Positions 60,091 through 64,000 of a stretch of 64,000 nucleotides of DNA are shown here, piece after piece. Location of the stretch: assembly GCF_000429945.1 (NCBI RefSeq), contig NZ_AUCV01000003.1, forward strand, positions 186,001 through 250,000. Direction: 5' to 3'. The stretch is from Desulfogranum japonicum DSM 18378 (GTDB lineage: Bacteria; Desulfobacterota; Desulfobulbia; Desulfobulbales; Desulfobulbaceae). The notes beneath the pieces were generated by a model that was not told where the DNA came from, did not search any database, and worked only from the letters and a program-made list of their open reading frames with translations. Every line of letters begins with the position of its first letter. The first letter of the stretch is position 1. Position numbers and translations under genes: made by a program.

Positions 60091-60167
60091 GCCGATATAG
60101 CTCAGTTTGGTAGAGCGGCTGATTCGTAATCAGTAGGTCACCGGTTCAAGTCCGGTTATCGGCTCCA
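60091..60167 (+). tRNA. tRNA-Thr (anticodon CGT)
   Basis: A full cloverleaf can be drawn. The acceptor stem is GCCGATA / TATCGGC with T discriminator and encoded CCA. The anticodon loop is TTCGTAA (CGT, reads ACG). The T-arm is CCGG-TTCAAGT-CCGG. Length is 77 bases including CCA. No other tRNA is adjacent. The DNA after it turns AT-rich. Confidence 0.95.
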
Positions 60168-60987: not shown

Positions 60988-63117
60988 TTATAGTGTACCT
61001 ATTACTTTTCTAATTGCATTATCTAGGTCGTCACCTGATGGTAAATTAGGTCCAGATATGAAACGGTTTGAAAATTCTTCTAATGTAAATCGGAGGCTGC
61101 GAACTTTAAGTAAATCCCTTTGATTTCCTAATGGTACTTCTTTCCCAAGTTCATATGTAAATACCGTCAGTGTATCATGGGAGGCATTTTCAACGGTTTG
61201 AATATCATTGCCAACAACGTCTTCAAATTTTTTATACACAATCTCTGGAAGAATAAAATATAGACCCTTTTTGACAAGAGAAGACCTTGAGTAAATAACT
61301 CCTTTTCTTATTAGTTGAGGGATCAACCTTTTATGAACATTGGCCCAATTTAAGCCGTGGCTTGAGGATGGTATATTTTCGATTGGTGTGTTTGTCATTG
61401 GAAGATTTTTATAGCCATGCCATGCATCCCTATAATTTCCTGTAATGTCAATACTCTGAATCTCAATCCCTACATATTCTACCAGTTTAGTGTTCTTTAT
61501 TCTGGCCAATACCCAATCCATTGAAAGGTGACGTCCTACTTGTACCTCTTTGCCTGAGTTTTTTCCAAGAGCTACTATGCATTCATCTATCTTTGTCCTG
61601 TTTTTTACATACTCGTCAAAAAGATAAAACTGAACATCCCCAAAAGCATCCTTTGCCACTCTTTTTAATGTTTCATAATTATTGGCATAAAGACGATTGG
61701 GGCAGATAATAATGTGTCCATAAGGTGAGGTTACTGAGCAAGTACCGTATATGATACTTTGATCATGATTGATTTTAATACAGCTCTTGTTGAGAAAGGG
61801 ACAGGCTCCAATATTCCACAATGACCGTGATTCTTTTGATAAATCATCAGGTGCATATCCGAATATCTCAACTAAATCTTTTTTCTTTCTCATTGATGTT
61901 CTGATAATGTGTTGATTTGCGTTCTCTTCTCGTTCGCCATGATACTGATCTAGTAATATATTGATCTGCTTTCCTATTTCATATGCCATAAGAGGGGGAA
62001 CAGCATTGCCAACTTGTTCATATTGCTGAGTGATAGAACCTGTAAAATGGTAACGGTCGGGGAATGATTGGATTCTTGCTGCCTCTCTGACAGATATAAC
62101 CCTATCTTGTGTAGGGTGAAAAAAGCTCCCCCAATGAGGGTCACATTTGGTGAGCACAGTTGAACATAGTCCTTTAGGGTCTAATCTGCCATACCTCTTT
62201 GTATGGTCACTCCTTCTAGCACGTTTCAATCCCGCGGGTAATAACTCAAAAGGAATATCACGCCAGCTACCCCCTTGAGGAATATGTTTTAGCCTTTCTA
62301 GGTTAATCTTCCCGAGATTATTACAGCTATGGTTAAATACAAATTCACTCCCATTTCTAAGTATTTTCTGATATTCGCTTAACGGTTGTAGTGACTTATA
62401 TTCTATCTTGTCATTTCTTTCACCCGATCTAATATCTGGTAAATCAGAAATTGCATCCCATACAGTTGTCTGTGGTTTTAATTTGGCGGCAAAAAGTGGC
62501 GTAATATCTAAACAAAGTTCTTTTGCTCCTGTGAAATTGGCAACCGCTTTTGAATTGTATTTGGGTTCCGGAAATAAAATTTTTTCATTGAAAGATTGAA
62601 TAGCAATAAATATCGTTCTAAATCTCATTTGCGGCACGCCGTAGTGTCCAGCAAATAAGATTTTATGATTGACTTTGTATCCTAATTCTTCTAATTCTCT
62701 ATAGATTTGTTCAACGACAGTTCCTTTACCAAGAGATACAATTCCCGGAACATTTTCTATGAGGACAGCTTTGGGGAGTAGTTCTTGTGTGACTCTTATA
62801 AACTCTTTAAATAAATGGTTTCGGTCATCGTCAAGGGATCTTATAGGGGCATTGATAGAAAATCCCTGGCAAGGTGGTCCTCCGGCTAAAAGGTCAATTT
62901 CCCCTTTTTCCACTTTTAATCTCTTACGAATTCCTGAAGCGCATACTTGGCGCACATCACCAACAATAATATCAATATTTGGGTGATTATCTCTATAGGT
63001 TTGGGCATAGATTTCCTCTAATTCATTTGCAAGAACGGGTTGAAAACCAGCCATTTTTAAACCACATGATAAGCCACCTGCTCCAGCAAATAAATCAACA
63101 ACTGTCCTCTTGCTCAA
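60988..63117 (-). CDS. Fused m5C DNA methyltransferase - NotI-family restriction endonuclease
   Basis: One uninterrupted 709-codon frame. Residues 1 to about 395 are a complete C5-cytosine methyltransferase: AdoMet motif DLFAGAGGLSCGL, catalytic PPCQG at 91-95 (C93), ENV at 121-123, QMRFR at 163-167, a target-recognition region at about 175-330, and GNAVPP at 371-376. Residues about 412-709 resemble NotI: FGYAP, then four cysteines (C439, C446, C460, C472; GACPF, SCIK, GTCSV, ICPNR) like the iron-binding Cys4 site of NotI. They continue with MDW (D534) and EIQ (E552/Q554) like its PD-(D/E)xK-type centre. TTG start with AAAGGAG 8 bases upstream. An internal Met409 has no ribosome-binding site. 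AT-rich and next to a tRNA, so probably acquired. Confidence 0.85.
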   Translation of the reverse strand: MSKRTVVDLFAGAGGLSCGLKMAGFQPVLANELEEIYAQTYRDNHPNIDIIVGDVRQVCASGIRKRLKVEKGEIDLLAGGPPCQGFSINAPIRSLDDDRNHLFKEFIRVTQELLPKAVLIENVPGIVSLGKGTVVEQIYRELEELGYKVNHKILFAGHYGVPQMRFRTIFIAIQSFNEKILFPEPKYNSKAVANFTGAKELCLDITPLFAAKLKPQTTVWDAISDLPDIRSGERNDKIEYKSLQPLSEYQKILRNGSEFVFNHSCNNLGKINLERLKHIPQGGSWRDIPFELLPAGLKRARRSDHTKRYGRLDPKGLCSTVLTKCDPHWGSFFHPTQDRVISVREAARIQSFPDRYHFTGSITQQYEQVGNAVPPLMAYEIGKQINILLDQYHGEREENANQHIIRTSMRKKKDLVEIFGYAPDDLSKESRSLWNIGACPFLNKSCIKINHDQSIIYGTCSVTSPYGHIIICPNRLYANNYETLKRVAKDAFGDVQFYLFDEYVKNRTKIDECIVALGKNSGKEVQVGRHLSMDWVLARIKNTKLVEYVGIEIQSIDITGNYRDAWHGYKNLPMTNTPIENIPSSSHGLNWANVHKRLIPQLIRKGVIYSRSSLVKKGLYFILPEIVYKKFEDVVGNDIQTVENASHDTLTVFTYELGKEVPLGNQRDLLKVRSLRFTLEEFSNRFISGPNLPSGDDLDNAIRKVIGTL

Positions 63118-64000
63118 CTGCGATACTCCTTTAAAATCAAAAACTTAAATAGGTTTGTCGATTCAGGCTACATCTCCTGCTCGTCCCTATATATACCAAT
63201 AAAACAGACAGAAGTCAGTCGATGATATTAAGTGCAACACAAAAAGTATCATCGAAAACACAATCCACCATAGGCAATCAACGTGATTTCAATGCAAATG
63301 ACCAAATATTCTAAGGCGATCATGTCGGAAATTACACCATTTTGCCATTCTGTGGCGGTTTCAAGGGCAAAACTATACTTTGGCTTGCATTTGAAAAATA
63401 TTCGTTTCTGAGGGCAGATTAGACAAGCCCGACAAATGATGAGACAGAGAAGAAAACAATAGTGGCGGCAATGATAATTATTAAGACCATGCATCCATAG
63501 GCTATTTCCAGAGATTTTAGGTTCACATTGCTTTGTTCAGGATATCTCTATAAAAACCAAATACCAATCCCTGTTTCAATACTTAAAACCGGAATATGTC
63601 ACGTTGTGATATCTGCCGGGTAAAGATGAGTGATTGAGGACAAGGGTTGTTATGCTTCTTTGATGAACAGGGCAAATATATTGGTTTTGGACAAGGATGG
63701 ATAAATGTGGATAAACAAGGACAAATCCTATTCATCCCCTTGCTTACCGGACTACAAAACACTCGTCAGAGTGTTATATTGCTTTAAAGGCTACAAGTAG
63801 GTGAAGAATTAAACGGTAGTGCTTTTATGAATATAAAATTATTCAAGCCTGTGGTATGTAGTCGTTAAGGCGATATTCTATAAGAAACGTTAATTTCCTG
63901 AAAAGGATTGAAGTGTAAAAACCCCTGTTAATTCAGGGCTACCATTGTTGTCTCAAAAAAATCCGTTGCGTTTGTTAACAAAAGACAACCGCAAAACAAC
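63118..64000. other. 880-base AT-rich region at the right edge; no clear gene
   Basis: It should hold the methyltransferase-endonuclease promoter. On the minus strand a TATATA at about 63191-63196, with CTGACT 17 bases before it, is possible but weak. A perfect DnaA-box nonamer TTATCCACA (minus strand, 63706-63714), next to a 7/9 match, and a small hairpin AACACTC / GAGTGTT (63758-63775) are visible. The frame at 63249-63494 has no gene-like features. Confidence 0.35.

Follow-up and report, generated by a model that had tools for sequence, protein, structure and literature searches.

Can a cytosine methyltransferase and a restriction endonuclease merge naturally into one protein that both protects and cuts? 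This question is raised by a gene of Desulfogranum japonicum, found within a 64,000-nucleotide stretch of DNA (hereafter the window). The first-pass annotation had read one frame here as a methyltransferase joined to a NotI-like endonuclease. That architecture is confirmed by the open reading frame, which has no internal stop and lies on the minus strand, a detail that the annotation had left unstated; the plus strand of the same interval contains many stops. From stop to stop, the frame spans 718 codons in the genome, and its TTG start has a predicted anti-Shine-Dalgarno pairing of -8.2 kcal/mol. Type IIC enzymes are defined by having both domains in one polypeptide, and in the assembly sequence a stop-free frame encodes both. 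We propose that the gene probably encodes a naturally fused Type IIC/IIP enzyme, derived from a gene pair that was merged by an insertion at the junction, so that a single chain would both methylate and cut. The features of the locus are listed in Table 1.

Table 1. Features of the fused gene and its surroundings, in window coordinates.
Feature	Position	Strand	Details or basis
Fused methyltransferase-endonuclease gene	60988..63117	-	709 codons + stop, TTG start
Shine-Dalgarno AAAGGAG	63126..63132	-	8 nt upstream of the TTG start
C5-cytosine methyltransferase domain, residues 1-391	61945..63117	-	PF00145, TIGR00675, PADLOC MTase_II
Predicted catalytic Cys83 of PPCQG	62869-62871	-	Motif reading
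Linker, residues 392-408 (YHGEREENANQHIIRTS)	61894..61944	-	Junction comparison with relatives
NotI-type endonuclease domain, residues 409-709	60991..61893	-	PADLOC, PDB NotI profile, Foldseek, VIA-align
Four-cysteine cluster Cys439, 446, 460, 472, expected metal site	61702..61803	-	Alignment A5 and NotI contexts
Predicted catalytic residues Glu524, Asp534, Glu552, Gln554	61456..61548	-	Alignment A5; aligned to NotI
tRNA-Thr(CGT), island attachment site	60091..60167	+	Repeat search

By profile and motifs, the N-terminal half is a complete C5-cytosine DNA methyltransferase. Pfam PF00145 matches residues 5-385 (9e-68) over profile positions 2-322 of 324, and the half is also matched by TIGR00675 (1.6e-60) and PADLOC MTase_II (2.9e-136). 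The motifs claimed for it are present: motifs I, IV (PPCQG), VI (ENV), VIII (QxRxR, here QMRFR), and X (GNAVPP) are complete, and FAGAGG is found as well. A Type IIG enzyme, of gamma class and cutting at a distance, is ruled out, as the methyltransferase is of the C5 type and not an NPPY/F-type amino-methyltransferase. A whole-genome search with PF00145 detected no second C5 methyltransferase in the host genome (5.8 Mb, scored 100% complete). An active nuclease would therefore leave protection of the host to the fused methyltransferase.

The C-terminal half is, by profile, predicted fold, and conserved residues, a NotI-type endonuclease, with a match far beyond chance. PADLOC REase_II covers residues 409-708 (2.8e-144), beginning exactly at Met409, the methionine that starts the separate nuclease in relatives. 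The Pfam NotI family PF12183, with a cut-off of 22 bits, is borderline: it scores 19.8 bits on the whole fusion protein, 22.0 bits on the C-terminal part alone, and 22.2 bits from the genome search. A single-sequence search gave PDB NotI at 0.004 (phmmer), and a family profile built from a 25-member alignment had NotI as its sole match in the PDB (1.1e-17). The predicted structure points the same way. A fold model of the nuclease half (pLDDT 88), based on an alignment of relatives from which plasmid-derived rows were left out, found NotI by Foldseek (1.3e-15), with no further significant match. VIA-align superposed it on NotI structure 3c25 over 288 residues (Z 24.9, 3.1 A; next fold at Z 7.3). 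XisH, Can2/Card1, and BamHI (VIA-align, Z 4-7) were set aside as specific relatives, since they share the general PD-(D/E)xK fold only.

The residues expected of a NotI-type enzyme are also retained. Numbered within the nuclease domain, Cys31, 38, and 52 are invariant and Cys64 is at least 90% conserved (alignment A5, 25 relatives), in contexts that agree with NotI. Glu116, Asp126, Glu144, and Gln146 are invariant in the same alignment and correspond to Glu145, Asp160, Glu182, and Gln184 of NotI (counted on the phmmer alignment). In NotI, Gln replaces the catalytic Lys, and the Cys4 site holds iron (review, PMC4081073). The NotI pattern reported by the first-pass annotation therefore stands: the four cysteine contexts and the MDW and (V/I)EIQ residues are conserved across the 25 relatives, with the Asp/Glu/Gln center intact. 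The nuclease half thus resembles NotI (PDB 3bvq, 3c25; PF12183) in fold, catalytic residues, and Cys4 pattern. In contrast, NotI is a free protein of 383 residues, compared with 301 here, and the two are about 20% identical.

A real fusion could nevertheless contain a crippled or silent nuclease, leaving a methyltransferase-only protein as an early step toward an orphan modification enzyme. In an engineered fusion of the Eco29kI system, nuclease activity fell by two-thirds and phage restriction was 100 times weaker than with the split system (PMC3039593); in the present gene, the start signal of the nuclease has been lost. However, the nuclease half is retained at full length with all of its catalytic and cysteine residues, and it has no clear excess of changes (15-21 unique substitutions on the fused lineage vs 13-19 in sister sequences). 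The differences are concentrated at third codon positions. The nuclease half thus appears to be without visible decay, which agrees with continued function, although a very recent fusion would be beyond the resolution of this comparison; early decay of a recent fusion might leave no trace. Given the retained residues, we consider a silent nuclease unlikely.

In all of the close relatives that we compared (10 from species genomes, 1 from the same family, and 9 from viral contigs), the methyltransferase and nuclease are separate frames; typically, the two overlap at an ATGA that holds both the nuclease start and the methyltransferase stop. Programmed frameshifting is not needed to explain these split pairs, because the overlaps fit coupled translation. 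Pairs on plasmids are annotated alike, with a NotI-family nuclease adjoining a DNA cytosine methyltransferase. We surveyed NotI-family frames in 57 relatives and in genomes of the phylum (395), the class (258), and the phylum of L002 (Ca. Venteria; 398). These frames (about 55) span 206 to 417 codons, vs 718 for the fusion. The larger ones (350-417) were rejected as fusions, being too short to include a methyltransferase. No other fused NotI frame was found in these genome sets, in viral contigs, in phages, or in the plasmid matches opened, and the fusion gene is absent from six genomes of the same genus. The pairing of methyltransferase and nuclease is therefore common, while their covalent fusion is, at the level of sequence, new and confined to one genome as far as searched. 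This qualifies the earlier description of an unusual self-contained enzyme: the single chain and the lack of another C5 methyltransferase in the host agree with it, but the pairing is ordinary, occurring as adjacent genes in all close relatives.

Three further observations concern the wider family. The fusion and the pairs in L001, L002, and L010 (genomes labeled as Zetaproteobacteria, Ca. Venteria, and the cyanobacterium Prochloron) are almost 80% identical, pointing to recent horizontal spread. In two viral contigs (L051 and L052), the nuclease and methyltransferase genes are convergent and not in tandem, so gene order is not fixed in the family. Within the same bacterial family, a split NotI-type pair (L015:2653-7333) has as neighbors a second C5 methyltransferase and a weakly matching EcoO109I-like endonuclease (0.0003), with an AAA_21 gene after them; by gene content, this is a double restriction-modification cluster.

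The junction suggests how the two frames were joined. Between the conserved methyltransferase end (LLDQ) and the nuclease Met lie 51 nt, vs ~2 nt in close relatives, and this net gain of ~49 nt brings the nuclease into the methyltransferase frame. No other copy of the 51-nt linker was found in the same genome or in viral contigs. When the frame is moved by one base, these 51 nt give MANEKRTQINTLSEHQ, a short frame that runs into the nuclease start through an ATGA overlap. A longer ancestral tail followed by a one-base shift is thus a possible route to the fusion.

A sequencing error would look alike. The fusion might be an artifact of assembly or sequencing, with the real methyltransferase stopping within or close to the 51 nt and the nuclease using its own ATG. 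This is consistent with the shifted frame and its overlap, with the split state of every relative, and with the fact that the junction rests on the assembly of a single genome. However, no base run in the junction exceeds 3, and even a one-base error would leave an insert of ~50 nt. Neighboring genes are intact, with long frames of up to 810 codons, and a ribosome-binding site is missing at the nuclease ATG. The lack of a homopolymer and the integrity of the neighboring genes lead us to regard an artifact as improbable, and to place it below a silent nuclease.

The start signals indicate what would be translated from the joined frame. At the internal nuclease ATG, the anti-Shine-Dalgarno pairing is 0.2 kcal/mol, vs -3 to -10 in most relatives (L049 and L050 were left out of this comparison). 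The L002 nuclease start also lacks Shine-Dalgarno pairing, yet it retains the stop-start overlap. With neither a ribosome-binding site nor an upstream stop for coupled restart, the full-length fusion is expected to be the main product. For this reason we judge least probable of all that the working system is two proteins, in which the full fusion is accompanied by nuclease translated separately from the internal ATG at 61893 or by methyltransferase released through proteolysis of the linker, even though the nuclease ATG stays in frame and is preceded by a long, charged linker.

The reading that we prefer, a single-chain enzyme, would have arisen and would work as follows. Its ancestor would be a mobile Type IIP pair, in which a C5 methyltransferase gene was followed by a NotI-family endonuclease gene with an ATGA overlap. 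A net insertion of ~49 nt at the junction would have made the two into one gene, now carried on an island within a tRNA-Thr gene, and the cell would produce a single 709-residue chain. The N-terminal half would methylate cytosine in the recognition site, the C-terminal half would dimerize and cut unmethylated sites, and both halves would share one specificity. Domain compatibility within one chain is weakened as an argument by the poor full-length model (pLDDT 58.8), which counts against this best explanation and was not used for domain arrangement.

Such an enzyme must not cut its host before protecting it. NotI-type enzymes cut both DNA strands, so nicking, which the first-pass annotation had feared would precede protection unless the enzyme had internal control, is not the expected hazard. 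The methyltransferase half would work as a monomer on each new chain, while the NotI half would require dimerization on the site. As the protein accumulates, it would then first cross a range in which it methylates but does not cut. A delay of this kind, from the assembly of a monomeric methyltransferase and a dimeric Type II nuclease, has been proposed for Type IIC enzymes generally (PMC12707154). The internal control that the annotation called for would thus require nothing special, as assembly could supply the delay.

The fusion is housed by a 9.3-kb island at L014:6118-15459 (genome C3:246118-255459; window 60118 to beyond 64000). An exact 50-nt repeat of the tRNA-Thr(CGT) 3' end lies at 60118-60167, and its second copy is 9.3 kb off, outside the window. 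Besides the fusion, the island carries an HTH_17 excisionase-like gene, a P4-type integrase, and an 810-residue SIR2-nSTAND defense protein (SIR2_2, 6e-25; PADLOC ThsA, 1e-23). Past the second attachment copy, L014:15463-15755 contains a degenerate repeat of the tRNA-flanking DNA (82% over 44 nt) and a 74-codon frame that resembles an integrase C-terminus by eye, with no Pfam match. This region suggests that an older element sits in tandem at the same tRNA.

Comparison with known systems places the fusion more precisely. The nearest precedent was made by hand. In 2011, a C5 system was fused, and it was proposed that natural relatives might exist unidentified (PMC3039593). In the resulting RM.Eco29kI, methyltransferase activity remained at 80% and nuclease activity at 33%, and phage were restricted 100-fold in vivo (PMC3039593). 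Thus, a C5 methyltransferase and a Type IIP nuclease are able to function in one chain, although restriction is reduced. As in our fusion, RM.Eco29kI joins overlapping neighbor genes for a C5 methyltransferase and a Type IIP endonuclease, with no separate specificity part (PMC3039593). It differs in being engineered, with the nuclease first, a GIY-YIG nuclease, and a two-glycine joint, whereas the fusion here is natural, with the methyltransferase first, a NotI-type PD-(D/E)xK nuclease, and a 17-residue linker.

Type IIC enzymes nearly all methylate adenine and cut at a distance. BtgZI and other Type IIC/IIG enzymes (PMC4081073) have both activities in one chain, as predicted for the fusion, and in BtgZI the methyltransferase again comes first and the PD-(D/E)xK nuclease again contains Gln. 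However, their methyltransferases are of the alpha or gamma class, not C5, and they cut outside the site. CR.NsoJS138I (PMC3850674) is likewise a natural merger of neighboring restriction-modification genes and is active as both parts, but its fused partner is a regulator (a control protein), not a methyltransferase. The split pairs of L002 (Ca. Venteria), L010 (Prochloron), and L015 (same family) have domains that are 60-81% identical to those of the fusion and in the same order, and they differ in being two genes with a stop-start overlap.

No published natural fusion of a C5 methyltransferase and a nuclease was found in the open-access literature, with REBASE and subscription papers outside the scope of the search. 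On sequence and model evidence, the architecture appears to be real and uncommon, and it is best filed as a variant of Type IIC restriction-modification. The fusion is probably a natural case of the type that was predicted, and engineered as RM.Eco29kI, in 2011. We advance more tentatively, at a little short of even, that it could be the first natural Type IIC enzyme to combine a C5 methyltransferase with a palindrome-cutting NotI-type nuclease, both active, and alone protecting the host.

If our reading is correct, Type IIP pairs can merge naturally into single-chain systems through one small insertion. About a dozen close split relatives, together with the lack of a second C5 methyltransferase in the host, would offer a clean test of the origin of fused systems and of host survival, making both origin and self-protection directly testable.
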